From: Paramecium sonneborni | Taxonomy: Eukaryota; Ciliophora; Oligohymenophorea; Peniculida; Parameciidae | NCBI GenBank assembly: GCA_905182985.1 | Contig: CAJJDN010000165.1 | Span: 35,709-99,708 of the forward strand | Length of the DNA: 64,000 bases | Direction of reading: 5' to 3' | Part shown: piece by piece, positions 7,875-46,418 of the stretch | How positions within the stretch are numbered: the first letter of the stretch is position 1 | How the letters are laid out: every line of letters begins with the position of its first letter | Made by a program: the position numbers and the translations under genes | The notes under the pieces: generated by a model | Seen by the model: only the letters and a program-made list of their open reading frames with translations | What the model was told of the DNA's origin: nothing | The model's database searches: none

Positions 7875-9190
7875 CTTATAAATGTTAAATATTTCAGGTT
7901 TTCTTCCTCTTAACTTGAATAAATTAAATGCTAATGTTACCTTCATCCTATTTAAAAAAAAGGAAAATATAAAAATATATTTTATAAATCAATGTTGATT
8001 ATGATCAATCAAAGATAAAATCAGAGTCAATAAATTATTAATTCCTCTATTAAGTTAGTTATAAAAAATATTTATTTTTTTGTTTAATATCATTTATACT
8101 TAGAAAAGCAATAAAATAAAATTTTATATATACTTTGGCGTAATTTAAAATATTGTATAAAAATAAGTTCATAATTATTCAAGTTCCTTTATATCAAAAC
8201 TAAATAGCTCAGCCTTACTACTTAATCTTATTATTTTTAAATTAGACTTTAATCCAGAAAAAATGTAATTTGCTTTTTATTATCTAAATTGTTCTTCTTT
8301 ACAAATCAATATTTATTTTGTATTTTACAAATTCCAAGTATGATAAATTAAATTTATTCTATCATTTCTCTCTTTTCGAACAATTTTTGCTATTCTCAAT
8401 GCATTTAAAAATTTTCCCGATAATCATTAGCCTATTTTCTGAAAATTTACTCCATCAATTTATTGAAATTAAAATAATACTATAATTTAGAATGTTTTTG
8501 ATGCATTCAAATCAATTTGTTTTTCAAAGTGATTAAGATATTTGTACATTTTTCTTGATATATGTAATTAATGGAATTAACAATTAAATACCAAAAATTA
8601 AAATTAAAATCTTTTAATATTATAATTAAATATAAATTTAAAATATATTGATTAATAATTTATATTTCATTCAAAGTCATTATACAGTACTTGTTTAAAG
8701 ATGAAAAAAATAAATATAATCTAAAGATGCTTAAGCATTTTGTTTTTTAATATATCTATGCACGAAGCTTATCTTTTATTTATAAAAAACATACCAGCAA
8801 ATATCTTGTTTCGACTTAATATTTAGTCTTTTGAATATCTCTAAAAATATTTAAAATTCTAAATTCTTAATTGTTAAGTATTCAAGTATGAATCATTGGG
8901 TTGAAAATATAATGCTGGATTAGGGATTTTAATTTTTGTCAATTAAGCATAATATCACAATTACTTTAAATTTTGTGTACATTATTGGTAATCAAATTTC
9001 TTATTTTTAATTATTGAAAAATAAATAATAATAAAAGCAGCAATTTGTAAGGAATGGATTAATTAAATTGTCTAAAATTTGTCTCCATCAACGGTTGGTT
9101 TATAGAGTGATTTTTATTGAATAGACTTTTATTATTACAATTTAACATTTATATGAAAAATAAATAAATTTGAAAAGTTTATTTGAGATT
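7875..9190. other. Gene-poor stretch with a possible minus-strand fragment
   Basis: About 1.3 kb upstream of the DUF4215 gene has no complete gene. On the minus strand a frame ending at TGA 8669-8667 reads as plausible protein from about 8960 (IKIPNPALYFQPNDSYLN, then a hydrophobic tail). It has no ATG near its start and an in-frame TGA just before it. It could be a terminal exon or a remnant. The rest is low-complexity A/T. Confidence 0.35.
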
Positions 9191-17761: not shown

Positions 17762-20700
17762 ATGTTTTTACGATTATTATTTCTGATAAATAGATTTTTA
17801 AATGCCAAGGATGATAAAATCGATTTATATTTAACTAAAAATGAAAATTATCCTTTAATGGGATAATCAATAATTATTCCAATAGATTATTTTCCATCTC
17901 AGAGTGAAGAAATACTTTAGTCAAACACTTTTCAACAATCGATACAATCTATATCTTAATCCTTAATTGAACTTAAATAGGTATATAATATTTAGGAGAA
18001 TTTTTAAAATTTTTTCTAATTAGTGAGTGCCGATTAATAAGAAGTTAAAATTTGTTACACTTATTCATAAAATATTTTATGTGATTAAACATTTCAGAAT
18101 TATCTTATAGATAATAGTATAATAAAGCTTAAGAGAAAGAATTTAAATTTTTATACAAATAGTTCATCTTGTTTATCAGTATTTGCTGTTAGTTTTAATA
18201 CTTATTTACTAGAATGTGATGATTTGTAAGGAAAATTGTTAAAATTGATCGATGAAAATAGTAAAATTATACATCAAATACTCATTCCAACTTAATTAAA
18301 TTAATCTATGCATATTTTATAATCAAATCAAACATATATAATTTATGAAATATTCAAAGATCTATGTTATTTTACATATGTTGAAATTAACTAAAATTTC
18401 TAATTAGAAGTAGTGAATTAAAAATTTTTAGATGGAAATCTAATGACTTAAGGTATAGGTGGTGATATTGTGGAAATTTCTTTATAAAAAGATAATATAT
18501 TGAATATTTTTTTTAATTAATGTTTAGCATAATTGGACGTCAATAATCATATTTTAGTTTAATCTTTTAAGATTTTTGATAATTCAAGAAGATATTTTAA
18601 ATATATATCAAAATAAAATACTTTGTAATTTATAATTGATAAATCTTCATAATAGCAAATTTAATAAGATTACAGAAAAATAATTATAAATCCAAAAAAT
18701 GATAAATTAAGAAATGCCTTTATTATTAATTAGAATTATATAATTTACTTTGAAAGCAAGATTTTCATATCAAATAATAAAGTAATCAATTATACACTGT
18801 CTTAAGAGTTTTAAGAATTGCTTGAATTAGGGAATTTACCAATTATTATTGGAATAACAAAGGCTGGATAAGTCTAAATTTATTAAATTTTTGATTTACC
18901 ATAACATATCAATCTTAATTCCTCAAAAATGGTTATTGTAATTAATTTTCACTTTTTTCACTTTTAAACTTAGAAAATTTATATTCTTGAAGAATATTCA
19001 TTAGAAAAACCTTATTTGATAGCCTAGACTGAAGAAAACATAAAATTTATATTGATAGATGAAAATATATTGTGGAATACTGACTAATAATAAGCTTATT
19101 TACATGATATTAAATAAATTTAAATATCAAAATATCTTTATGGATAATTTTGGTAGATTGTAGGATTTAAATACTATGGTAAAATTATATAAACTTTAGA
19201 TAGATACTAAAAAGTATAATTCAAAAAACGATTATAATAACCTTTATTATTAGTTTATTTAGCAAAGAGTTCTTTATTACTTGAGTTTTACCAGAATAAA
19301 ACTCTGATTATATAAGATAATTTATAGGAAAAATTTTAATTTCAAAATTATAATTTTAATATTGAAACTTCTTAGGTTTTTACAAGCACTATTCATTCGA
19401 ATGTTATTATAATAGATAAAAAAAATAAAAAAATCATTCTCTATTAATATTTGAATNCTAATGACTTAAGGTATAGGTGGTGATATTGTGGAAATTTCTT
19501 TATAAAAAGATAATATATTGAATATTTTTTTTAATTAATGTTTAGCATAATTGGACGTCAATAATCATATTTTAGTTTAATCTTTTAAGATTTTTGATAA
19601 TTCAAGAAGATATTTTAAATATATATCAAAATAAAATACTTTGTAATTTATAATTGATAAATCTTCATAATAGCAAATTTAATAAGATTACAGAAAAATA
19701 ATTATAAATCCAAAAAATGATAAATTAAGAAATGCCTTTATTATTAATTAGAATTATATAATTTACTTTGAAAGCAAGATTTTCATATCAAATAATAAAG
19801 TAATCAATTATACACTGTCTTAAGAGTTTTAAGAATTGCTTGAATTAGGGAATTTACCAATTATTATTGGAATAACAAAGGCTGGATAAGTCTAAATTTA
19901 TTAAATTTTTGATTTACCATAACATATCAATCTTAATTCCTCAAAAATGGTTATTGTAATTAATTTTCACTTTTTTCACTTTTAAACTTAGAAAATTTAT
20001 ATTCTTGAAGAATATTCATTAGAAAAACCTTATTTGATAGCCTAGACTGAAGAAAACATAAAATTTATATTGATAGATGAAAATATATTGTGGAATACTG
20101 ACTAATAATAAGCTTATTTACATGATATTAAATAAATTTAAATATCAAAATATCTTTATGGATAATTTTGGTAGATTGTAGGATTTAAATACTATGGTAA
20201 AATTATATAAACTTTAGATAGATACTAAAAAGTATAATTCAAAAAACGATTATAATAACCTTTATTATTAGTTTATTTAGCAAAGAGTTCTTTATTACTT
20301 GAGTTTTACCAGAATAAAACTCTGATTATATAAGATAATTTATAGGAAAAATTTTAATTTCAAAATTATAATTTTAATATTGAAACTTCTTAGGTTTTTA
20401 CAAGCACTATTCATTCGAATGTTATTATAATAGATAAAAAAAATAAAAAAATCATTCTCTATTAATATTTGAATGAAGAAATAAAAGCTAGACAATTTAA
20501 ATTAAAATAAACAATACATTCTATTTTGTAATAAGATAATCTTTTAAGTATATCTTTAGAGAATTGTACTTAAATTCATATTGAAATGGAATCTTTAGAA
20601 ATTACTTCGGGTATGAAAATATTATAGTAAAATTGTACCCTATAATATTTAATATTTTAAAAGTCAATATTTTACTCAAAAAATCTATTAGAAATATTCT

Positions 20701-22857: not shown

Positions 22858-24596
22858 TCAAACATTATTGAAAAACAATTTATGTATATCGTATGTCTAT
22901 TGTTTTAATTGATCGAGAGATGCATTTAATAAGAAATGATGAACCTATGATGGACTTGTTAGTTAAGAAATATTCAAAGTTTTTTTGAGTTCAATAAAAT
23001 TAATATCTCTATGTTATTTGTTTTTATCAAATTTCATATCAAATACTCTGTTGATTGTCATGCATATAATAAGTTACAATCTTAATCTTGCATAAAATTT
23101 TTGATCATCTTATTCTCTTTAATCTTCAACTTATTTTTATAATTCATAATAGCAATAGGATAAACATCTTCTATATGGAACTTTAAATTATTCGAATCTA
23201 TTGAATTAGGAAGTCTTTAATAATATTATTATAAAAATAATTACATTTGTAAATCCACCTTCCATTTTTAATTGTAAAAGTAATTATTTTTCTTCTGTTT
23301 TCATATCAAATTATTAGCAATCAATTTCCAATGTTTAATTTTCCAATTTGACATTTTATTAGGAAATTTAAGCTTGTAATTCAAATATGTGTTTTTTAAG
23401 TTATTTTGAATTCTTAAGAAATGAGTTCCATTCATTTAAAGGTATTTTAAGAAAGTTTATTTGATCTTAGATTAACATAAGGAATTCACGTTTGAGGATA
23501 ATCACCATATTTAAGATGCAAAATCTTGTCCATACAATATAAGGGAATTGAGCAATACATTATAAGAAATGCATTTCATTTTCCAAAATAAAGAATTTAT
23601 AGTACAAGAAATGTAACTCTCTCCAAATTAAAGGAAATAGATGTTTTTCCTATAATATAAATATATAAAATACTTCATCAGATTTATTATATAAAGACAT
23701 AAAATCAGGATCTGGATCTTCGTGTAAGAAATGTTCATTTTATTTTAAATGTCTAGTTGGAAAGATTTTAATTTTAGGTTTTTCATTGAATTCTTTAGGC
23801 TATGGTTTAAATTAATATTAATTACAACTGCCCATTCAGGATTGAAACTTTCTCTTTATTGAATTGATATAGCAATATGAACAAGACTTAATTGAGTACG
23901 ATAAAATTCACGAATGTGATCATTTTGAGGAACACATTTGAAGAGAGAATGTAAATCTCCAAAAGTTATTCGTTTTTGTTCAGATGGATTTAACATTTTC
24001 ACTAGAATTGAAGCTAATTCTTTTTATAACACTTTCTTATTCAATTAAGAATAAAAATTATTGTATTCTTCGAAGGTTTTAAAGTTTTGTAAAATATTTG
24101 ATGTTAATAATTGATAAAGTAGACATCCCAATAACCACATATCAATTCCTAATGAATAAGTTTAATTCTATAGAAATTCAGGTGGTGTCAGTTGTAAATT
24201 AGGATAAAATCCAAAAGCTGAAAGTTCTATTTAGTTTTTATAAATATAAATATTTTAGAGAGTGAAACATCGACCTAAAAACCCTTATTGATGTAATACA
24301 TATAATCCTATAAGTACTTACTTAAATATTTCTTTTATTTCATCTATTGATAGGTTTGTTTTTTAAATTATTAATTCTTCAAGAGTTATCCCTTTAGAAC
24401 ATGGAAAATGATAGAATTAGTTTTGTTCAAAATCGCATGGTTTTCTGAGATGTTGTCCTGTAATTTTTTTTTCTGCATCAAAGAATATAAATAGTTCTTC
24501 ATAAATGACTTTAGCTACTAATTTTTAGACTGAATTAATCATTTTAGGAGTTAGAATTGCCTTAGTTCTAAAACTAAGTTCAATTTATTAAGACAT
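22858..24596 (-). CDS. Pseudokinase with coiled-coil tail, 551 aa
   Basis: Exons 24596-23829, 23799-23674, 23649-23245 and 23214-22858 are separated by introns of 29, 24 and 30 nt, all in phase. The first 290 residues have a protein-kinase C-lobe skeleton: an alpha-E-like YVLHQQGF, a PPEF motif in the APE position, and YSLGIDMWLLGCLLYQLL matching D-x-W-x2-G. The catalytic residues are gone. HRD is replaced by LGR in FLGRCFTLQNIYI (Asn kept), DFG is AFG, and no glycine loop or VAIK lysine is evident. It is therefore predicted catalytically dead, a scaffold or allosteric partner. The C-terminal half (about 400-500) is a Gln/Lys/Glu coiled coil. The start lies 104 bp from the divergent TMBIM gene. 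Confidence 0.8.
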
Positions 24597-24700
24597 TATA
24601 ATAAATATAGAAAAAATAAATAAATTTAATGAGTTAATTTAAATAGGGGTATTTAAAATGAATTATTTAATAAATACATAATATTTATTATAGAATAATA

Positions 24701-25812
24701 ATGTCAAATCCATACGTATAATCGAATAATCAATATCCTCAATAAAATTAGTAATAATACCCTTAATAATATCCACAACAATACCCTTAATAGTATCCAT
24801 AATAATAATAATCATATTAATAACCACAATAATAATACCCACCTTAATAATAATAGTATTATTAATCATAATAACCTAATAACTAATATTAATAAGTTCC
24901 ATTTTCAAAGGCATCTTTACATACTGCACATGATCCTGCAACTACAAAAGAAAAACTAATTGTAAATATAGTTAAAGCAATATAATTATTTGGAACCTTT
25001 GATAATATTATATATTGTGTATACTTTTCTTGCTACATTTTTAAAACAAAATATTGCTATTTCGGTCACAAATGAAACTGCAAACATACTCCAATAAAAT
25101 GCAGTTGCATGATAACTTTAAGGATTAATCAAAAGATCTCTAAATCCCTATGAAAAACATGCTACAGTCACCATACCAAATGTGACTAATAATTAAATTG
25201 TTAATAAACTATAAACTTTAACTATAAAATTCTTTCTCTAATCAAATCCAACATTTGATAATAAACAATCTCCACCATCATAATCAACAAGAGGCATTTT
25301 TTCTAAAATCTTAAATTTTAAATTACATTCATCGTTCGAATATGTTCCATTATTTTAGGGAACTGTTTAATTGTAATAAGGCTATTATTGAATTGGCTGT
25401 TTAATATTAATAGCTGCACTTATGACATTTGCTGTTACTGCTGCATTGACTGTTTATGCATGCAAAACTAAAACTGATTTTACTCTAGCAGGTATTATTA
25501 ATTATTCTATTTAGGTGGTGCATTATTTATTTTTGCTACTATTTTATTTATCCTCATCATATTTTCAATATTCTTCTTTAATATTATCCTTTGGCTACTC
25601 TTATGTGCATTATCAGTAATACTTTATGGTTTCTATTTAATTTATGATACTCAATTGATTGTGGGAGGAAAAGTATTAATTTATTATTTATTTAGTCTCA
25701 TCAATTAAGTATAGATGATTATGTTATTGGAACAATGTTCATATATATTGATATAATTATTTTGTTCTTGAGAATATTGTAGATCTTGATGATATTGTTT
25801 GGAAAAAAATGA
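24701..25812 (+). CDS. TMBIM/Lifeguard (Bax-inhibitor-1 family) gene with an internal inversion
   Basis: As written the gene is split: the N-terminal leader and C-terminal half are on the plus strand, but the middle (24895-25400) is on the minus strand. Turning that segment round joins both edges in frame. With introns of 28, 23 and 23 nt (24997-25024 inside the segment, 25492-25514, 25673-25695) the CDS is 1038 nt, 345 residues. Order: an N-terminal (P)QQY-rich leader (MSNPYVQSNNQYPQQ); the first helices with KVYSLLTIQLLVTFGMV and RKVPNNYIALTIFT; then LMTFAVTAALTVYACKTKTDF, a GFYLIYDTQLIVGGK signature and helices ending LFGKK. Family members are seven-helix Golgi/ER proteins affecting Ca2+ leak and cell-death sensitivity. 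In the given orientation the gene cannot make the protein. Confidence 0.9.
24713..24883 (+). repeat. Gln/Pro/Tyr codon repeat in the TMBIM leader
   Basis: TAA, TAG and CAA glutamine codons alternate with CCT/CCA and TAT/TAC, giving repeated PQQY units and longer Q runs. Pro/Gln/Tyr-rich N-terminal leaders are also usual in animal GRINA-type TMBIM proteins. The low complexity could help misassembly at the adjacent inversion edge. Confidence 0.8.
24895..25400. other. 506-bp inverted segment inside the TMBIM gene
   Basis: The segment codes for TMBIM residues only when read on the minus strand. Both flanks code on the plus strand. Both edges abut the same 11-mer TAATATTAATA in the same orientation (24884-24894 and 25402-25412). 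Reversing the segment gives in-frame joins on both sides: ...NNQYQQ-QPIQQQ... and ...FENGT-LILIAALM.... The exact edges can slide by one base. Confidence 0.88.
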
Positions 25813-25819
25813 AATATAA

Positions 25820-26446
25820 TCATTATTATTATCGTTAACATTACTTCTTCTTCTCTTTCCTTGTAAGTCTTCTATACTTTCTTATTATTTTCATATCAGC
25901 TATCAAACTTATTTTATCAGTTTTCTCTGCTAATCTATTAATTCCAATTAAATTATCGCCAACTTTATTGAATGTATATTTTGAATGACATACTTCAGGT
26001 CTATCCTCATAAATTAAATAATCTGCACCGAACTTATTAATTAATATCTCTATTTATTATTACCTTTCCACCTCCAATAATATAATAATTATTAATCACA
26101 CATTTATTATCTTTATCCTAATATACTATTTAATCTATTTTGCAATTCTTTGCCAAAGGAATTTCAAAATTATATTCAATTCCTTTCTCTTTATATTAAT
26201 ACATATAATGTTATTAATTTCTCAATTATATAATATATATCTCTTTTTTTTAATGTTTATATTCGAGAATTCTATTGATATTATTTCATATTAAAGATTT
26301 TTTAAATGCTTGAATACTTTTCAATTTCATTTAATTCATAAATTCATATAATAGTACATTATTATAATTAACATAAATTCCTCTGAAGGAACCAAAAATA
26401 CTCTAAAATACAATACTACATTAAATGCATTCAAAATTAATGGCAT
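25820..26446 (-). CDS. Hypothetical protein, at least 117 aa
   Basis: The firm part is 26204-26064 joined to 26032-25820 over a 31-nt intron, 117 residues. It starts MYQYKEKGIEYNFEIPLAKN and ends in a basic tail (KIIRKYRRLTRKEKKK). Upstream frames to about 26446 also read as protein (ILEYKHQKKEIYIIQL; MPLILNAFNVVLYF), so the true start is probably further 5' through one or two introns that I could not fix. No domain is recognised. Its stop is only 7 bp from the stop of the convergent TMBIM gene, so the 3' ends must overlap or nearly overlap. Confidence 0.55.
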
Positions 26447-26864
26447 ATTCTCGAATCAAGTATCACTAGAATCAAATTTCGAATTCCATATCATAAAAAA
26501 ACATTTTTATTAACATTTCTAAATATTAATATATTTTTTATATTATTTTAAAAAATATGACATATGATATTTTTCTAAAGATTTTAAATAAATAAATAAA
26601 ACTAGACATATATAAGTATTTGATTATTTATATTGTGAATAATTTTATAAATAAACGTAGACTCTTAGACTAAGTTTTCTAATTAATTTCATAGTAAACT
26701 GAGTCTTCACAACAATTTTCAATAGATGAAGATGAAATAAATCAAGAGATTAATAACATTTGAATGAAAATTGTTTGACATTAATAATCTTAGATATTCA
26801 TGTTAATTGATTTAAAGAAATAATAACAAAGCAAAATGATATATTTAAATATTATTTAAAACAC
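26447..26864. other. Intergenic, nothing seen
   Basis: These 418 bp of A/T-rich DNA lie between the 5' end of one minus-strand gene and the stop of the DnaJ gene. No protein-like frame or RNA gene was recognised. Confidence 0.5.
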
Positions 26865-27453
26865 TCATTTCTTTCTTGTAATAAGTTTTAATATTTCAAT
26901 AATAAAAGTTAATCCTTTGTCCAAATAACTTATATTATCCTTAAAGAACTTTTCAAAACCTCCCTCAGTTAGCATAAATTTCTTCATGCGACTAGATGAT
27001 ACATTTTCTAATTCTTCCTTTGATAAGATTTTATTTGAAGGAATATCTAAGTTAAATGGGAATTCTTAATCTCCTTTTTTAAATAAGAACTCCATTTATA
27101 TCGTTTATTATTGATTATTGATAGTATCTTGATTAGTCTATGTTATATTTAAATCCTCTTATGCTTTGGATTAATAATTATCAAATTCCATTTTAAGAGA
27201 AGTGTCTGATAAGACCTATGATATTATCAACAAATTGAATTACTTAAAAAGCTTCTCGAACTTCTTAATATTTAATTTCATCCTTCATTTATGAATCTGG
27301 ATGATACCTAGATGCCATCTTTAAATAAGCTATTCTAATATCAGCTTAATTTGCTGTTTTTGGAATGTTTAGTATTTTATAATAATCTTTAGTATATTTT
27401 GTAAGGCGTGAATATCGATTCAATGCACAAAAAAATCTCGAGGATTAAAACAT
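26865..27453 (-). CDS. DnaJ (J-domain) protein, probably mitochondrial, 186 aa
   Basis: Exons 27453-27244 and 27215-26865 are joined over a 28-nt intron that splits the J domain; the phases close. J-domain proteins stimulate the ATPase of Hsp70. Residues about 25-75 are the J domain: YYKILNIPKTANQADIRIAY, then HPD in ASRYHPDSQ, then EVREAFQVLSD. The first 24 residues (MFQSSRFFCALNRYSRLTK) lack acids and are rich in Arg, Ser and aromatic residues, as in a mitochondrial targeting peptide. No zinc-finger or C-terminal substrate domain follows; the rest is acidic and helical. The start codon is 8 bp from that of the divergent gene at 27462. Confidence 0.9.
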
Positions 27454-27461
27454 TTTAATAA

Positions 27462-27944
27462 ATGAATAATATATTAGAATATTTAGAAACTAGAGATTAA
27501 GAAATTGGAGTAATCTAAGTTATCTGTTTATAGCCATTAATCATTGAATACTTCAATGTAAATTATGATTTAACATGTGCAATTAGCAATATAATAAATT
27601 AGAATACTGACATCTGTATTTTTAAAATATAGAAGCAACAACAAAATAATAACCAGAATTAAGAAAAAACCTAATGGGATTACTATAGGGATAATAAAAT
27701 AATAGCAACTATTTCAAACAAAGAAGAAATACTATAAAAGCATCTTTAGGGTTTTAAAGAATAACTATTTATTAAATTCTCCATTTTTGATGAAAATGAT
27801 AAACCAAATTACTTAGATCGATGCCAAAAAACAATAAATTATATCTAAATGAAATAAAAAGACATTATGTTTAGCAAATAAGATACTTTATATTTAGCAG
27901 AAGAAGTTAAAGAACATTGTTAATAATGGCTAACATCAATTTGA
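27462..27944 (+). CDS. Hypothetical protein, 160 aa
   Basis: This is a single open frame from ATG 27462 to TGA 27942-27944. The N-terminal 60 residues are mixed and hydrophobic (MNNILEYLETRDQEIGVIQV). A Gln/Asn linker leads to a well-formed charged helical C-terminus (IATISNKEEILQKHLQGF, then FDENDKPNYLDRCQKT, ending CQQWLTSI). No family is recognised. The C-terminal half is convincing as protein. The N-terminal half is weaker, and the start leaves only 8 bp to the divergent DnaJ start, so the real start could be later or in another exon. Confidence 0.55.
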
Positions 27945-29200
27945 ATAAATTATTATATCTAAAATTTATAAAATATACCACCATCCATCTTCAAATCATC
28001 ATTGTAATTAAATTCTTTAAGAATAAAGTTATATATATTATATTATTACTTATATATTGAGAAACAAAAATATATCAAAATATTTTTCCGAATAAAAAGA
28101 AAGTAATTTTTTATACTCACCGAGAAATTTAGAATTCTAAAAAATACTAAATCAATTCTTATTATAAAATAATATCTAAAATAATTATAGCTATTCAATT
28201 AATATGATCTTATTAAGTATCTTTTAAAGCAAATTTCATAGTTACAAAAAACAAAAAATTTATAAATATCTATCAAAATAGTTTAGAATATAAGTATAGG
28301 TAATAAAAAGAAATATACTAAGTTGAAAAAATAAATGGAAATATGATATTAAGAAATAGAAGAAAAAATTTTAAGTCACTATTCTAAGAAATACTCACAT
28401 AATAAACAAAAGTTAAAATTTTATTAAGAAAAAAGAAAAGTCAAAAAAAATCAATAAACGATTTCATAATTAGCAATAATAATTGAATCAGAAATTACTA
28501 TTATACTTCAGTTAGAAATCTCGAATAAAATTCTAAACTATTTCATCAATACTATTGGATGAATAAAAATAAATATTAATGGTGAGCAATTCATACTTGG
28601 ATATGGTGATTATAGTAAAGTATTAAATAGTAAGGATGAAAATTATATACATTTCAAATATAAGGTAGAATTTTTATGCAAAAAAACAGTTAAAATTTTA
28701 TGAGAAATTTATAATAATTAAATTCCAATTCGAAACATTAAAAATAAAAATAATTGTAAAACAGGATAATAAATTGATGAAATTTGAAAAAAAACTTGAA
28801 GAGGATGATTTTAGAGATTAAAGAATTTGGAAGGTAAAAGTTTTATTGATTAGAAAATGTAGAAGATGTAGGAATTAAAGAGACTTTAAATTTTAAAAAC
28901 AAAAATAATAAATTAAAAAGTTAGTTGAAATAAATAGTGAATTTGATGCAAGTATTAGACTTAATTATAACATCTATAAAGAAAAAATTGTACTTATCTT
29001 GAATTGATTTGATTTGTTATGATTTAGTAATTAATTTTAATTTGAGATTTTGATTTTATTAGTGTTTTAACAAAATAAGAAACTTTTCAAAAATATGTTT
29101 TTTTCAATGGAATTTCCTCAATATGGAAATAAATTTCTTATATAGAAAAAAGATTAAATTAATATACAATAATTTAGGAAATCAATTGAGATAATAAAAT
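27945..29200 (+). other. Gene-poor stretch with possible degraded coding sequence
   Basis: From about 28320 to TGA 29005-29007 one plus-strand frame is open for over 220 codons, with a Lys/Gln/Ile-rich composition. A second frame gives a more natural segment over 28575-28660 (INGEQFILGYGDYSKVLNSK). No start, intron set or family could be assigned. I take it as a decayed gene, or one too diverged to model. Confidence 0.35.
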
Positions 29201-30025
29201 ATGAGATTAATCATATTTATCTTGACAATAAGTACAGTCACATTGATAAGTTCAACAAATTTGAATATAAGCAACAGTTGTAATTGTTCTGAATTGTTTA
29301 ACTAAGATTGTTTATCTGTCTAGTCAAATTGTGATTGGAATAGTTAGACGAAATAATGTTAAGAAATAGAATGTTCAAAAATAGAATTGTCAAATCATTG
29401 TGTTTAATCTTCTAAGAGATGCTATTGGTTAAATAAGTAATGTAATGATTTTATATCTTGTGAAACAATTCCAGGTAAAAGTTAATAAGAATGTATTGAT
29501 GCAAATATCTATTGTCCAGCATCAAATGGAATAAATTGTTTAGCAATAGAATATTAATAAAAATGTGAAAAAATAAAGGATCCTGAAACTTGTAATGATT
29601 ATTATTCTCCAGATGGTAAGTGTATGTGGAATGGAATAAATTGTATCATTCTATAATCTTGTACACAATTATGGAGTAATAAAACAAAGTCATGTTTGTA
29701 AAGAGGTTGTTATTTTGATTAGCTTTCTTATTCATGCTTAGATATGAAATGTTCTAAGCATTAATTAGAATTTGAGTGTTAATTTGGAGTTCCAACAATT
29801 GGTCCATATTTAAATAATATTATTCCATGTAAATGGGATAGTATAAATAGAGTATGTTAAAATGGAAAACCTGATGAATATACTATAGATCAATGTTATA
29901 GTCATACTGCAAGAACTTATCATTGGAGTAGTAGTATATTTAACAAAGGATAATGTATAGCATGTTATGGTTATATATTATCAATAATAATAATAATTGG
30001 ATTGTCAATAACAATTATTATATGA
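29201..30025 (+). CDS. Cys-rich secreted surface protein, 274 aa
   Basis: This is a single exon from ATG 29201 to TGA 30023-30025. A signal peptide (MRLIIFILTISTVTLISS) leads into Cys-rich units such as CDWNSQTKQCQEIEC and CYWLNKQCNDFISC, where C-x-W and paired Cys recur every 40-60 residues. The end is CIACYGYILSIIIIIGLS, a Cys pair followed by a hydrophobic tail. That is the pattern of a GPI-anchored or tail-anchored surface antigen. Length and layout match the gene at 9969-10781, with low residue identity outside the Cys/Trp frame. Surface location is inferred from signal and tail. Confidence 0.9.
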
Positions 30026-37269: not shown

Positions 37270-39090
37270 TCATTCCCAATAATCTTGAGATTTGTAGAAT
37301 ATAGTTTCTCCTCCAAAACAACCAACAATTAATTAAATATTATTATTACTAATTGAAATTGAACTTATCATAGAATTATATTAAAATTCTCTATGAATAA
37401 CCCATCTATTTGAAATATTTTACCTCCAAAATTTAATAGTACAATCTTTGCTTCCACTAATTAAAATAGATGAATCTGAATTAAAAATAACTTAAGTAAT
37501 AGTCGCTTTATGACCATCAAGAGTTTATACTTTTTTATATAGTTGATTTTATTCCATTTCCCATATTTTAATAAAATTATCTTAACTACCAGAAATTAAA
37601 AGATCTTTTAATTTACTAAAACACAAAGTAGTAATACTTCCTTTATGTCCTTTAAGAATTTAATATTAATTCCATTCTTAATTTTTAAGATTCCACAAAA
37701 TAATAGTTTTATCAAAACTACCACTTCCAATAAGAGTAGAATTTCTATTAAAAAAAACAGTTTGAATTCCAGATTAATGTCCTTATAATGTATATTTAAC
37801 TTCCCAATTAATTTAATCTACTTTTATTTACCACACTTTAAGTTTGCAATCATCACTACCTGAAATCATTAAACCATTCTTCGAACATCCTTAAATACTA
37901 TTTACTCCTCTTTAATGAGTTTATCTTAATTCATTTAAACTCCATTTTTAATTATCTCTAAACCAATACACAATCTAACCATCTTCTAATCCTGTAAAAA
38001 ATGATCCTTTTTCATCATAAAAATATAAACATTTTATTTAATTTATTTACATTAATTAACTTTAATATTACCATTCATTTTTATCTTCATCTATCTTCCA
38101 TAATATTAATTATTCTTAATTTACATTTGTTAATGCTAACTTACCTTCATGAGACATTATCACACTTTAACCTTAATCCTTTCTAAAATGTTTATAATGT
38201 ATACCTGTTTATTTATATTCATATAATTTTAATAATCTAGGAGTAAACTTTCGATATAAATCTTAGCAGAATAAATTCAAATTATAATTTAATACATTCA
38301 CTTATTCCTATTACTTTCTCTATTTATCTAACATATTTTATTCACTCTATCTCCATTTCTCATTATTACTTTTTTCATTCATTATCTATATTTATAATAA
38401 ATTCTTTTATTCTTCATATGTTCCCTCTTCTTTCTTTATTTTTAATAACTCTTAATCAAGTTTTAATAATTTCAAATCCTTCTTATCTATTGCTACTTCA
38501 TGTTTCTCTATCATACATTCATATTTCACTATCGTCTCTATTATATTTTTATCAATCCCTTTTGTCTAAATTACCTTATTTATTGCACTACGTATTATCT
38601 TTCTTATCTTTGATTTCTTATCTAATTTCCCTTAATAGAATACTGAACTTTTTATTATTCCACTTTTAAATTCATTCATTTCTTTCTAATAATCATCATG
38701 TACCCTTCTTAATTCCATTAATTCCTCTCTATTTCTTAATTATCTACCATATTATTATAACTCTTCTAAATATTAATCATATTTCTTTATTATTACATCC
38801 TTACAATGTTTTTAACAATTCAATAATTCATTTTATTACTCCTAATTTTTATCCATCATTTAATTTATAAAAGATTATTTCTGTTACATTACTCTACCTA
38901 TTAATTCACTTTACTCTTTTATTTTATCACTACTAAATTTTATATATTCCTATGTTACCATATCAAGTGTATTTGCCTGATTCTTACCATCATTCTATGT
39001 TAACCATAAAAATTAAATTTATTATTAAAATTTATCAATCCATTTTGAATAGTTTCCTTAATTATACTCCCCTGTTGTTGAGCTTTCCAT
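37270..39090 (-). CDS. Coiled-coil/WD40-repeat protein, 589 aa
   Basis: Exons 39090-38205, 38171-37424 and 37405-37270 with introns of 33 and 18 nt close in phase. The first 295 residues are a long charged coiled coil (for example KDLKLLKLDQELLKIKKEEG). The remainder is a WD40 propeller of about seven blades: LTNVNQEQLILWKI, GSDDCKLKVWQI, GSGSFDKTIILWNL, GSQDNFIKIWEM, GSKDCTIKFWRW and a last blade ending SQDYWE. GH and WD positions are clear (LKGHKGSITTL). This coiled-coil plus propeller form is greatly expanded in Paramecium and usually serves as a protein-interaction scaffold; the partner is unknown. The 18-nt second intron is at the lower size limit for the genus. Confidence 0.9.
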
Positions 39091-39445
39091 TTATTTATTA
39101 TATCAAAAAAAACTAATTATTATTATTAATATATTAATATCTTTATTATTTATTAAAAATCACATCATTCTTTATTTTACTTTCACTTTTTCAAAATCAA
39201 ATATTATTTTTAAATAATAAAGACAAATTTTCAATTTTTATCAACCATATCACAACTGAACAAAGAATTATTTAAGTATATATATCATTTTAATATTAAA
39301 AATTTAATTTATAACAAAAATATGTCTTATATATATAATTTAAAATAATTACAATTTATTAAAATTGTAAATTTAAATGTCAAGAATATAAAAAAAAGAA
39401 TCTAATTAAAATTAATCTCCATATATACACATTTATTAATTTATA
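39091..39445. other. Intergenic, nothing seen
   Basis: These 355 bp of A/T-rich DNA lie between the start of the WD40 gene (39090) and the stop of the giant protein gene (39448-39446). No protein-like frame or RNA gene is seen. It must hold the WD40 promoter. Confidence 0.5.
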
Positions 39446-42400
39446 TCAATTATAATTATTTTCAATATTAAAAAATTCTTTTCTCCTTTTTTTTTACTCT
39501 TTTTTAGATAATAATAATTTAATGAATATACAAATAAAAGTAAAAACAACCATTATGAATTAAACAAAGTTTTTATGAATCTCTTTTTCATTTTCAAAAT
39601 TTAATTCAATCAAAATTTATGATACTTGATTACTTAATTTTAGATATGAAGGTTAAGTGCATTATCCTTAACATTCAATTCTAAATTTATCAAGCGTAAT
39701 TAGATGAACTTTCAAATCTAAACTACTGAATTTTTCAACTAATATAAAATGAGATTCATTGTATCTTTCAATAAAAGTATAATTATTATCCTCCACTTTT
39801 TAAATACTATCAATATTTCTATTTTTTCTTAAATTGCTAATATCAAATACATTAATAAAACTAACTTAATTTTATTAAAAACACAAGATCGCAAAATTGA
39901 TATCAATAAAAAGTAACTTTTTGAAATTTGCTTTATATTCATATCGAATTATTCCTAATTACTCAAATATGATCTTATTTAAATCATTCAAGTCTAATAC
40001 AATTTACATTAGCACTGCTATTTAGTCTTTTGATACCATAATAAATTTAATTTGATATTGATTACCTATGTTTTCAATATGATAGATCTAAATTTTAATA
40101 AAGCTATCATAAAAAAATTCAACTTTAAAATTTTCAAGCATTCTATCAGATTTATATTTATTATCAACTAAAATATCATAAATAACTCTGTCATCAATGT
40201 CAGTAAGCTTAAAAACTTTTAATTCAAAATATTGCAAACCAATATTCAATAATGTGTATGTTGAGTTCTTAATTTTAATTACATCAAATGTATTAAAATT
40301 GAATCTTTCAAAAATATTGGAAATATCTTAATCTAAAAAGGGCTTATATTAGTAATGAAATAAAAGTGAACCATTTGATAAACCTACAATCTGTAAATCA
40401 TTTGTTATCTTTAAATTTGAAAATTCTAAAATATATTTAAGACTTTACCACTAGAATAATTAAGAATTCTTTTATCATGTCTTAAAATGTTGTTGCAAAA
40501 ATTAAATTCATAAATTACTAAAGATGTGCTATCGATTATAAAAAATTCATGGTTACAGTTCTCATTGTTAAAGTTAATATACTAAATTATAAAACCAAGA
40601 TTGTAGGAACATTATAAAGATGTGTTCGAATCAAAAATATTTCTAAAGATAGATTATCCATTTACACAAATACCAAATCTATAATAACTACATATTGCTG
40701 ATTAATTTTTAAATATTAGAGGTTAATATATAGAAATATTTTCTGATCCAATAATTTCAACATTTTCAATATTACCAAAAATGTTTTCAAAATTAAAAAT
40801 AGTTCCTGTCAGAATACGTTAATTTATATTTAATAATTATAAAGTATAATTGGTATTAAATCTTACAAAATGAAAATTTAAATCTATATTCTCATTACTA
40901 ATAAAAGAGTTAGTATTGATTATTAGTTTTTTTTCCTCAATAAAATCTTAACTTTCTTTAGATATTTAAAAAGAAAAGCATGGTTAATTTAAATTTTAAA
41001 TATGAATTTGTTTTTCATATATGAAAAAATATTCTTCATCATTTATAAAATCAAAAGAAAATTTTTCCACTTCATCAATTTGATTAATTTAAATTAATGA
41101 TTAAATTGCAGTATTTATTAAATCGTAAATCAATAAAAAGGAACCTAAATCATCCTTTTTAGCTTTGATTATTAAATTTGATTCTTAAATTTTGTATTAA
41201 AGTGGAAATTAAACCGTATAATTGTAAGTAGGAAGTGTGTAAAGAAAAAATAGTTCTTCTTAATAGAATTAAAACAATTTTATATTTATTTCATTATTGT
41301 AACTAGTAAATATTAGAAGCTAATCAGTAAGTACATTATGTATCTAGATAATTTGCTCTTTAAATGTTATTTTTTAAGGAATCTAATAAGGATGATAGTA
41401 ATAAATATATTTAGTATCAATATAAATTCCTTCTTTAGAAAATTAAAAGGAACTTTTACAATCAAATTAATATTCAGCTTCTACAAAAATAAATTTTTCA
41501 AATGATAATTAAATTTACACTTTAGTACAATCTTCAAGTAAATATAATACAAAAAAGTTAAATTTAATTGCCTTCAGTATCTTTTTTTCGGTTTAGTGAA
41601 TACTCTTTCTTATTTCATCTTATTTTATTCGATAAATTTCTATTGAATTTTAATAGATTATTATTAAAAGCATATTCTTTCTAAGAAAAAATATTTCAAT
41701 TATATTTTCGTGCAATTAAATTATATATGATTTTATTTGTTCGCCATTTACATAAAATATCAATTTGAAAATGTTATTACCTTATATTAAGCCTATAAGC
41801 ACTTTTTCATAGCTAATCTTATATAGAATAAGAACTTTGCTAAAAAGGAGGATTCCATTTAAGTAAGAGAGAGTCTAATTATTGTAATCATTAAAAAATT
41901 TTAAATTTATTCCATTTTCCATAATCTTATTTATCTTAATTGGAAGATTTCTAGTATATTAACTATATGGTAAACATATTTAATCATTAAAAGTTGTTAT
42001 TTCATAAAAAAATTTCTTTTTATAAAAGTTTTAAATTGGTTTATTTGGATCAAATAGTTTTAAATTAATCCAAAAAGTTGAAAATTAATATGGATCAACT
42101 ACCACAGCTAAAAAAGAATCAGAATTTTTATATGAGATAATTGATTTCGGTTATATTAATTTAATTAATATAATCTACTAATTTGATATGGCTACAAATA
42201 AAGGTAATTTACCAACTTAAATTAAGTTATTTGTATTGATTTATTAAACTTTTTAATATTAGGAAATCGTAACAACTAACTTATCTGTGAAATGAAATAA
42301 GTATATAAATTTTCTAATATTAAAAACATTTTTAAAATTTACACTACTAAAATTTAATTACTTTTGTTCCAAATATAATTAACTTTTTTCCAAATTTTCT

Positions 42401-43273
42401 AAAACTATAAATTTTAAAGTGGAACTTTTATGAGGATAAACCTTTAAAATATTTGCTTAATCATTTTAGTAGACAGATAATATTTAATTATTTTTCTCAA
42501 ATAAAACGCTAACTTAATTGGTTTGAATTATAAATATATCACCTGGAGAACTAAATTCTAATTAAATAATTTATTAATTATTTTCAGAAAATCCTTCTAT
42601 CTATGATAAATTATATCTTTTTATATCTGAAAATGATAGATTAAATATTTAAATTGAATAAAAAATACTTGTTACACAATTTTTATTAAATATTATTATA
42701 GTATTTTTCTAGAATATTGAATCTGACTAGCACTACTATTCAATTGGAATGACAATTTGATCAAATATTTGTGATTAATTTAAAATTTAAATTATTGTAT
42801 TATTTTAATTAAAATAACATTAAACAATATAGATTTCTTAATCTAATTTGTATAATTAAAAACAATCTGAATTGTTTAACTTGATTTAACAATATTTTTT
42901 CTTCATTATTATATCATCGTCTTAGATATAGTTCTTAAATTGATATAAACATTCAATAATGCTTCTATTTCTTAATAAAATAATATCTATATCATCACTT
43001 TTATCCAAATGAAAACTAAATAGTCTTTCATTCCCATTTAATTCATCAATCTATTCGTTTTCTAATTTAATTTCTTTAAGTAATTCAATATTTAAATCAT
43101 TTATATTTTGTTCATCAAATTTCTCATTATTAACATTAATTTCATAAATCATTTGCTGTAAAAATATATTTTCATTTGGAAAAATATTGAAGGTGGTCTA
43201 AATTATTTGAAAATAATACAAGGGAACTTATTGTTACTTTTACAAATAACCATATGCTTAAGTAAATGTTCAT
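39446..43273 (-). CDS. Giant type I membrane protein, 1260 aa, homologue of 17762-22631
   Basis: Exons 43273-43220, 43197-40449 and 40425-39446 with introns of 22 and 23 nt close in phase. The short first exon is exactly a signal peptide (MNIYLSIWLFVKVTISSL). About 1180 beta-rich residues follow, with spaced aromatic and Ile positions (SSPGDIFIIQTNQVSVLFEK). One C-terminal helix (FIMVVFTFICIFIKLLL) precedes a basic tail. Size, signal, tail helix and several aligned stretches (GGDIVEISLQKDNILNIFF there, PGDIFIIQTNQVSVLFE here) make it a diverged homologue of the plus-strand giant. Unlike that gene it has introns. It has no catalytic motif; a surface or endomembrane location is inferred. Confidence 0.88.
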
Positions 43274-44324
43274 GTAAAAATTAAAAAAATTAATTTCTTT
43301 ATAATAATTTATTAGCATATTAAATTAAATTCAACTCAATATTAATTGGGATCTTTAAAATTATTATAAATGATAACAGCATAATAATTTAAAATTTTCC
43401 ATAAAATTTACATTCATATTCTCCTTATCAATTGGGCTATTTTTTTGATTAATGAATTCTTATATGTTGCGAATCTAATTATAAATATTTGATTTTAACA
43501 ATATCTTGCATTTAAATCCGAATTTCAGTTATTTTCGAAATAATTAAAAATAATAATTACTGTCGATATAAAACAATCTAAAAATTCTGATTCTAAATTT
43601 GATTGAAATAAATCAATAATGCAAGAAATAATAAATGGATTAACATTGTCAATTAAAATTTAAAATTATATAAAACTCCTTACTAATTAATAAATTTAAG
43701 TGCTAATTCCTTTAAAACTATTTATTATGGAAAAAATCTAAGAATTTAAAAAGAAGAACTAAAATATTTTAAATAAAATTTAATAATTAATTTATAAAAA
43801 TTCTTAAATATTAGATGAATTTGAAAGAATATTATAATAAAGCTCGATAGATTGCTAAAAATGCTTATTTAATATAAAATTCGATTCATAAAAATAATTT
43901 ATGATGATAAAAGAATTAGAAGGAATTTGAAAATAAATTAATACATTAAAATGTAAGTAAGTTTAATTTAATTTATTTGAATTTAATTAATAAAAAGATA
44001 ATCTTAAATATATTTAAATTAATTCTATTAATTATGGCTTATCTTTTTAACATAAACTAATACTAAGTTATTTGTGAAATAAATATTTCTGTTATTTGAA
44101 AAAACCTTTTAGAACTATTAAGATGATTTTAATGTATTGCTTTAAGTTTTAATGAGGGTTACAAATTATAAAATAGAATTTATAAAATTGTGATAACATT
44201 AAAAAATTTTGATGAATCAAGGAAAACTTTCATTTGGGAATGGAACTATTAGTAGAAGATCTGATCTACATAAAATAATACATAATTTAGAATTTTTGAG
44301 AAAGAAGCAGTATAAAGATTTTAA
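43274..44324. other. Gene-poor stretch with one small possible ORF
   Basis: Most of this 1 kb is low-complexity A/T. A plus-strand frame from ATG 43727 to TGA 43928-43930 gives 67 residues with a natural helical character (SQILDEFERILQQSSIDCQK). It may be a small protein or an exon of a larger gene; a neighbouring frame continues plausibly for 20 residues. Nothing else is supported. Confidence 0.35.
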
Positions 44325-44552
44325 ATGTTAACTTTAAAGTTTAAGACTGATTATGAAATTACAAAAAATAACTATGAGTAAAATATTATTATTCATTCAT
44401 TTGTAAAAGTCTTAGAAAAAGAATTTCATAATCATAAATTTTAGCTAAACTAACTTTTATAAATAAAGTGTTTAGAATTCGATGTATTAGAATAGTTTTT
44501 ACTAAATCTTAACGAAATAGTCATCTAATATATTATGAAATTAGATGTCTGA
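44325..44552 (+). CDS. Small hypothetical protein or 3' exon, about 75 aa
   Basis: A plus-strand frame ending at TGA 44550-44552 reads as convincing protein: MLTLKFKTDYEITKNNYEQN, then VLEKEFHNHKFQLNQLLQI and FDVLEQFLLNLNEIVIQYI. The first ATG in that frame is 44325, but the frame is open from about 44265. A different frame just upstream (ATG 44213, MNQGKLSFGNGTISRRSDL) also looks coding. The two may be exons of one gene, but I found no intron that joins them in phase. No family is recognised. It is convergent with the WD40 gene that stops at 44613. Confidence 0.4.
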
Positions 44553-44612
44553 ATTTTCAAATTTCATTATTACTATAGATTTGAATTGAATATTACTTTT
44601 AATTAAAATATT

Positions 44613-45605
44613 TCAAAAGGCAAATAAAGAAATTATTTTTAATTATTGTGAAGCATTTTCCCACACAATTAACCATAACCCATCATCACTAATAGTTCCC
44701 CAAATCTAAGTTGTATCAAATAGAAGCTTTTTGTAGATTTACAACTCTTAGTTTTTATTTACAAGATATAAAATCAACTAGAATTTATCTTATTTTATAA
44801 ATAATTGTCTTTATTTTATATATGATGAATTAAAAGTTTAACTTTATACACCTTCACTTTCCATTAGAAATTAATTTGATTTTATAAATTAACCGTCAAC
44901 TTAATTTAATTCATAAATTAACATTATTTTAAGCAAATATAAATGAATTACAAAAGAATTTTCCCCAAAAAAAGTTGCTTAAACTGCAAAATTATCTAAA
45001 TATATGATTTAGATAATTTTCCACAATTTCTCTTAATTACTTTCTAATTCAATCACAGTAATTTTACCACCTCCTGTACATGAAATTAATTTAGTTTCAG
45101 ATTCATTAAAGCTTAAATTATAAATCCAATCTTATTCATCATTTACTTATAAATCTTATTTAAAATACCATTCACAATTTACCTCCCAAAAATAAATATG
45201 TTCTTAAAGTCCTGCAACAAGTAAATTATTTTTATCACTTATCGCAAAACAGCTAAATTAATTGGAATTAGGAATTATTTTCATTAATATTTTATGATTA
45301 TTTACTCCAAATAAAGGTTTGATCTTTATCATTAAATCACAACCTGATATCAATTAATTTTGGTAATTTGTACAATTTAAGTATTTAACTTCTAAATTGC
45401 TATGTTTTACTTCACAAATAAATTGCATATAACCATTGCGAAATTAAAATAATTTTATGTTTCTTTCACAACCAGCAAAAAAAAAAGAATTTTTCTTATT
45501 AAATTTCATCGTTCTACATGTCTAATTAAATAGGATCGTTTATTTGAATCCTTTAAATTATTTAGAATTGTCTTTTTATTGCTACATATTATTTGAGTTT
45601 CCCAT
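44613..45605 (-). CDS. WD40-repeat protein, 330 aa
   Basis: This is a single exon from ATG 45605, preceded in frame by TGA, to TGA 44615-44613. The product is four to five degenerate WD40 blades: FFAGCERNIKLFQF, LISGCDLMIKIK, LLVAGLQEHIYFWEV, LISCTGGGKITVIEL, and a last blade IWGTISDDGLWLIVWEN. The N-terminal 30 residues are Gln/Asn/Lys-rich. Paramecium has many longer WD40 proteins with an N-terminal zinc-binding or coiled-coil half. This one starts directly in the propeller and looks like a short or N-terminally truncated family member. Its role is a scaffold by family; nothing more can be said. Confidence 0.8.
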
Positions 45606-46418
45606 TTTATATCAATAAATATTCTTTATATAAATATTATGAAATTCTCATTAATTTTATACATTAATCTAAAATAGATATTAATATGAAAATCATCAGA
45701 ACTATTTTAAGTTATATAAATTATTGTAATGCTTCATATTTTTAATAAATTAAGATCAAAAGGTACCTCTGAACTAATGATTCTTAAATTTTACTCTTAA
45801 AATAGTTTGAAGTTAAAACTAATGATATTGAATTAAACTTTTTCTTCAAAATTGTATCCTTATTTTTTACAAAGAAATAAAACATATTGAATTCAAATGA
45901 TTATAAATTTTAATTCTTTAGGTAGAAAGTTTTATAATGTTTTAAATATTTTAGATTTTAAAATATTTAAATAAAAGTTAAACTCATCAAACTTTTCTAA
46001 AAGATTTTAAGCTTATTAAAAAGAAGCTTTAAGTGTAACTTATTATTTAAATGAGAATTTATTTGAGTATATACTATAAATATTTTTGAAAAAATATAAA
46101 CAAAAATTATATATTTTTTTTTAATATAAAGAAGAATTTAAATTTTAGGATTATTTTGAATAAATAATGTGATTAAAATAATTTTCCTGTTCTAGTTTAT
46201 TAGTTATTTATAATAATTTGTAGCTATAAAGTTAACTATAGTTATTGAAGTAAAGTAATTGCTTAAAATGATAGATGTTTTTTGATTTGAATTTTGAAAG
46301 TTACAGTTTTGAGATGAAATAAATTTTGTAGAGATAAGTATAATAGAATAGGAAAAGTTTAGTAATAAAATAAAATAAAAAGAAAAGGATGAAAAAAGAA
46401 TAAATAACTTACAATGTA
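45606..46418. other. Long intergenic region, no confident gene
   Basis: Over 800 bp separate two minus-strand genes. Frames on both strands are short or made of Phe/Ser/Ile runs (minus) and TGA-rich (plus). The stretch near 46320-46420 reads as Lys/Glu-rich on the plus strand, but it has no start and runs into the AP-2 sigma 3' end. No RNA gene was recognised. Confidence 0.45.

Follow-up and report, generated by a model that had tools for sequence, protein, structure and literature searches.

The window analyzed here, a stretch of 64,000 nucleotides from the Paramecium sonneborni assembly (C165:35709-99708; assembly of 91.5 Mb in 289 contigs), contains a gene of the BI-1/Bax1-I family at 24701-25812 whose coding sense runs from plus to minus and back to plus. 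The left arm of this BI-1-like gene, which is recognized on the plus strand at 24701-24900 by its match to a duplicate on contig C154, carries the start codon and an N terminus rich in Gln, Tyr, and Pro. The middle of the gene (Bax1-I/BI-1, PF01027) lies on the minus strand at 24895-25400, with 24901-25399 securely inverted and the edges ambiguous by a few bases. The right arm then resumes on the plus strand at 25401-25812, where its translation reads from LILIAALM to the TGA stop at 25810-25812. At the left junction, the short shared sequence AGTTCC (24895-24900) is compatible both with the left arm and with the terminus of the flipped segment, and at the right junction, TTT (25400-25402) can be assigned to either side. 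In the assembled order, the plus-strand frame that begins at the start codon stops after 124 amino acids.

Reversing the segment restores a gene with four introns. Two of these lie on the minus strand within the segment, namely a 28-nt intron at 24997-25024 and a 24-nt intron (GTAATTTAAAATTTAAGATTTTAG) at 25303-25326, whose position is shared with the C154 duplicate, whereas the other two are 23-nt introns on the plus strand of the right arm at 25492-25514 and 25673-25695. A plus-minus-plus inversion at this place in a TMBIM/BI-1 gene had been proposed in a preliminary description of the sequence and is borne out by the coding sense and by the alignment with the duplicate. That description removed three introns (28, 23, and 23 nt) and arrived at 1038 coding nt including the stop, or 345 amino acids; we reproduced the 1038 nt, but the fourth intron of 24 nt had been missed. 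Since a 27-nt intron occupies the corresponding position of the duplicate, which reproduces the annotated protein P0003 exactly once its four introns are removed, we take the reversed product of the window gene to be 337 amino acids long. All four introns of the reversed gene retain GT-AG, and its 337 codons contain no internal stop or frameshift. The frames do join upon reversal, although the open reading frame is not the perfect one originally described, as residues are missing at both junctions.

The reversed product matches PF01027 with 102.2 bits over positions 2-207 of 207 (curated cut-off, 34.1 bits). In contrast, the protein annotated at this locus, P0107, matches only positions 2-91 of 207 with 29.7 bits, which is under the cut-off. 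The Bax1-I domain is thus complete only once the segment is reversed. The inversion predicts a minus-strand gene that begins inside the segment and continues into the antisense of the left arm, and we wrote out its product of 176 amino acids. A search with residues 1-125 of this predicted fusion identified one protein at E 1e-8 among 4 candidates, and this was P0107, which also has 176 residues. The full P0107 sequence, including its antisense tail, equals the translation of window positions 25297-24739 minus one intron, so that the fusion gene occupies 24739-25297 on the minus strand and combines inverted BI-1 exons with the antisense of the left arm. The public annotation therefore rests on the inverted order. 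The match is no independent check of that order, as the underlying contig is presumably the same, and the open minus-strand frame is likely only a by-product of annotation. Whatever the cause of the inversion, P0107 is a public antisense fusion with a partial Bax1-I label and may mislead studies of the family.

The intact partner of the window gene is found at the collinear place on C154 (14977-15907). It aligns with the window gene in the minus orientation over query positions 10-500 (window 24899-25389) and in the plus orientation over 512-940 (window 25401-25829), with 80% identity over the inverted segment and 84% over the rest. When the window was compared with 57.9 kb of C154 with the low-complexity filter on, counting plus matches longer than 150 nt and minus matches of any length, 22 alignments were obtained, 21 of which are plus; the sole minus alignment is the inverted segment. 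With the filter off, further minus matches appear between the window at position 55.6 kb and C154 at position 17.3 kb, and these are gone with the filter on. In the comparison with orthologues proposed in the preliminary description, the proteins of Paramecium tetraurelia, Paramecium primaurelia, and Paramecium bursaria run in the normal order across both junctions. Because the C154 duplicate and these three species share the normal order, the inverted arrangement is derived. A search with the protein of the reversed gene gave 88 matches at E ≤0.001 among 1866 candidates, the best being 87% identical (P. tetraurelia), and the C154 product of P. sonneborni itself is 78% identical to the reversed window protein. 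Next to the gene, window positions 25853-29367 are almost without a nucleotide match to the duplicate chromosome and have well-matched blocks on either side; the sole weak match within them is a 66% piece at 28908-29175.

The two junctions bear small losses. At the right junction, the reversed protein reads N-G-T where all four aligned relatives read N-G-G-T, and apart from this missing Gly, the reversed protein has no gap in the aligned conserved core of 232-233 residues. At the left junction, the protein is two residues shorter than those of P. tetraurelia and P. primaurelia within a low-complexity, glutamine-rich sequence where the alignment is uncertain, and this region is even shorter in the C154 duplicate and in P. 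bursaria. The match of the left arm to C154 extends through ATATTAATAAGTTCC, six bases past the edge drawn in the preliminary description, and GGAAC also ends the flipped part, so AGTTCC is attributable to both sides. Overall, the losses amount to one Gly codon and about two others, and TA is present at both edges of the segment. We interpret these losses as traces left when ends were joined imprecisely through short homology. In our reading, the junction strings also appear unlike the product of a few-base overlap of intact ends.

In the C154 duplicate, both sites that correspond to the breakpoints carry GTTCC in inverted orientation, preceded by TATTAA. This inverted similarity is equalled by 188 of 4000 random pairs of sites in the gene and by 330 of 4000 pairs in 9 kb. 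With the left site fixed, 44 of 838 right sites do equally well, and with the right site fixed, 53 of 603 left sites do. On these figures, we rejected recombination between strong inverted repeats. The resemblance of the two sites thus appears moderately unusual and is suggestive only. The 11-mer TAATATTAATA does flank both edges on the plus strand (24884-24894 and 25402-25412), as previously stated, but it is not rare here: it occurs four times in the window against 2.69 expected, and 27 of 100 shuffles reach four. Its two copies at the edges are coding sequence, supplying QYQQ codons and LILI codons, and codon content likewise explains the palindrome mentioned in the preliminary description. 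Both junctions are in frame as claimed; however, they count as one condition rather than two, as breakpoint shifts of i and j preserve both frames provided that i+j is divisible by 3. Flipping at the palindrome centers gives i+j = -2, which shifts the frame and does not restore the gene. Switching driven by the direct repeat or the palindrome was rejected on these grounds.

Misassembly, allelic inversion, and developmental rearrangement had all been listed as possible causes, and it was right to include all three. In the first case, a small contig would have been set backwards in scaffolding and the gaps closed wrongly, with the gene intact in the cell. The published macronuclear contigs of P. 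sonneborni were assembled with Newbler (alignment of at least 99 bp at 99% identity), scaffolded with mate pairs by SSPACE, and then gap-closed with GapCloser (PMC8354472), and this published assembly is presumably the one analyzed here. Flow-sorted micronuclear reads of the species are listed there at a depth of 13. In addition, P. sonneborni was left out of one analysis because its assembly contains micronucleus-derived sequence (PMC10195154); the same source describes the Sellis version as an improvement through scaffolding and gap-closing, which implies that an earlier assembly exists. Within the window, two 100% identical copies of 1017 bp flank a single N at 19457 (18440-20474), and C154 shows the same pattern at 8100, with a single N and identical copies of 1072 bp; such copies are most likely unmerged overlaps of two contigs. 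At C24:469000-477000, another Bax1-I locus, the first half of the domain is present twice (472601 and 473825) with a run of 214 N between, which could be either a tandem copy or a contig overlap.

The scaffolding history, the micronucleus-derived sequence, and the unmerged overlap in the same window all favor an error of assembly, as does the state of the reversed gene, which is otherwise undamaged and shares more of its core residues with P. tetraurelia (208 of 232) than the C154 duplicate does (197 of 233). On the other hand, there is no N within 23800-26600, the N at 19457 being the only one in the window, and a search of the inversion edges for the signs of a scaffold-join artefact (an N or a duplicated overlap) detected none. 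Moreover, the junction strings do not resemble overlaps of intact ends as we read them, and one more error would be needed to explain why the conserved Gly is absent from the right junction. A segment set backwards during assembly is therefore possible but unlikely.

Whether the contig represents the somatic genome bears on the developmental explanations. The ends of C165, read directly, consist of CCCAAA repeats at the start and GGGGTTGGG at the end, which are short telomere-type repeats, whereas a pattern search with CCCCAAACCCCAAACCCC gave 0 matches. Of 14 contig starts read, 7 consist of N; among the 7 readable ones, telomere-type repeats are clear in three (C165, C1, and C60), C2 has a short stretch, and C154, C150, and C250 have no telomere repeat. 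Five contig ends were read, and besides C165, C91 ends in GGGG, and a telomere is absent from C154, C24, and C54. Not every contig in the assembly is thus telomere-bearing. With telomere-type repeats at both ends and a gene interrupted only by sequences of intron size, C165 looks macronuclear.

In the unscrambling known from spirotrichs, the germline gene would be inverted and development would restore its order, and the recovery of the Bax1-I domain upon reversal fits such a process. However, the apparently somatic sequence is still disordered, which argues against unscrambling. Furthermore, no near-identical full-length protein was found, the best of the 88 matches among 1866 candidates being 87% identical in a database clustered at 90% identity. 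A search for a C-terminal fragment protein near 100% identity gave 20 matches at E ≤1e-20 from 109 candidates, none of them above 65%. Scrambled loci in Oxytricha, Tetmemena, and Euplotes woodruffi and the few confirmed ones of Tetrahymena also have a coding segment reversed relative to its neighbors, as here, but those loci are scrambled in the germline and ordered in the soma (PMC9797194), whereas the apparently somatic copy of the window gene is disordered and has losses at its junctions. No pointers are demonstrated at the window gene, whose 11-mer direct repeat occurs at chance frequency. The remarkable spirotrich-like rearrangement considered in the preliminary description is not supported, given a broken order in the apparent soma and junction losses unlike precise pointer joining, and we regard unscrambling as very improbable.

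A developmental origin could also take the opposite course, in which a germline copy in normal order would have its 506-bp piece turned around as the macronucleus develops, for example by misjoining of the breaks at two flanking internal eliminated sequences (IESs). In Paramecium IES excision, which involves PiggyMac and the nonhomologous end joining (NHEJ) pathway, double-strand breaks are made at TA and the ends are joined in the developing macronucleus (PMC3408717, PMC3464196). In favor of such an event, a density of ~1.05 IES per kb in P. sonneborni (PMC8354472) corresponds to about one per 1-kb gene, excision sites are joined through the NHEJ pathway (PMC3408717), both edges have TA, and a coding capacity that is still intact would agree with a normal copy in the germline. 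Nevertheless, TA dinucleotides are ubiquitous in the window, which has a GC content of 23%, and for the assembly to contain it, the inverted form would have to be sufficiently common. IES excision also deletes and joins precisely at TA, with no retained inverted segment described in the portions of the two sources drawn on here (PMC3408717, PMC3464196), and the high precision of that joining (PMC3408717) contrasts with the losses at these junctions. An inversion confined to the macronucleus is accordingly quite unlikely, and it is more doubtful still that the segment is flipped reproducibly via paired IES-excision breaks and silences one duplicate in the soma only. No report of developmental inversion in Paramecium was seen among the titles and abstract beginnings of the matches listed. 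If true, an inversion limited to the macronucleus would contradict the rule of deletion without inversion in Paramecium development. To our knowledge, a somatic inversion from paired IES breaks has no precedent and would be the first developmental inversion in Paramecium.

Averaged over both lineages, the dN/dS between the window copy and its duplicate is 0.226 for the whole gene, with 0.223 for the left arm, 0.310 for the inverted part (0.253 for its conserved core), and 0.141 after it; the value for the inverted part is nominally higher. Synonymous divergence between the duplicates is ~0.61, or roughly 0.31 per copy. As 77 of 3033 single changes lead to TGA, ~0.117 neutral changes per site correspond to three expected stops. 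Given the lack of any stop or frameshift and a dN/dS of 0.23, any loss of function would date to the later portion of the divergence time, as would the inversion, provided that the copy is indeed inactive. A tree of five sequences unites the two copies of P. sonneborni (91/93, under the starred level), and the branch of the window copy is 0.11 compared with 0.27 for the C154 copy, so that the broken copy was the more conserved of the two. At core positions identical in the other three aurelia sequences, the window copy has 11 private changes (the Gly gap included), P. tetraurelia 2, P. primaurelia 6, and the C154 copy 19. Besides the inversion, no decay was seen (no stop, no frameshift, and four intact introns), which fits a recent event or an artefact.

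Taken with the junctions and the duplicate, we consider that the locus probably records a recent, inherited inversion of ~500 bp that disabled one whole-genome-duplication copy of a BI-1-family gene, and ordinary breakage and rejoining is a likelier route to it than programmed unscrambling. Two double-strand breaks in germline DNA would have arisen around the middle of the gene, and the ends would have been rejoined with the middle piece flipped, by end joining that may have used AGTTCC at the left edge and cost ~9 nt. The event would have been inherited and recent, leaving the window copy inactive, a loss presumably tolerated because the C154 duplicate is intact. Join errors elsewhere in the assembly, the only moderate similarity of the breakpoint sites, the uncertain left alignment, and the lack of other decay count against this inherited inversion. 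If it is correct, the gene offers a clean snapshot of a whole-genome duplicate dying in one step, before other decay. Duplicate loss after the Paramecium whole-genome duplications likewise leaves a collinear pair with one member intact and the frame of the other broken (PMC10195154, PMC11334263); those losses show accumulated stops and frameshifts, whereas the lesion in P. sonneborni is a small intragenic inversion in a copy that shows no further decay. No paper turned up in a literature search on inversions within genes in connection with microhomology and pseudogenes.

Four further 10-kb stretches were searched for a second case by scoring the best candidates, a small sample that does not give a rate, and none of the matches listed represents a flipped segment within a collinear block. 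The first stretch matches its best duplicate contig, C2, in six pieces that are all minus. The second has collinear plus pieces on C13 and one 110-bp minus match (75%) out of order; it also matches C7 in both orientations at a single place and apparently contains an inverted relative of itself. The third matches C45 in the plus orientation near the collinear place, with one 66% minus match more than 100 kb away. For the fourth, the matches listed include no recent duplicate but relatives at 71-77%, with C73 all minus and C63 on both strands ~35-40 kb apart. Within the window itself, the interval 37275-46391 spans ~9.1 kb against ~4.2 kb on C154 (27189-31347), and parts of it match C289 (75-79%), C67 (75%), and C188 (71-81%). 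The lowest GC content of the window is found in the bin 42001-44000 (0.173).
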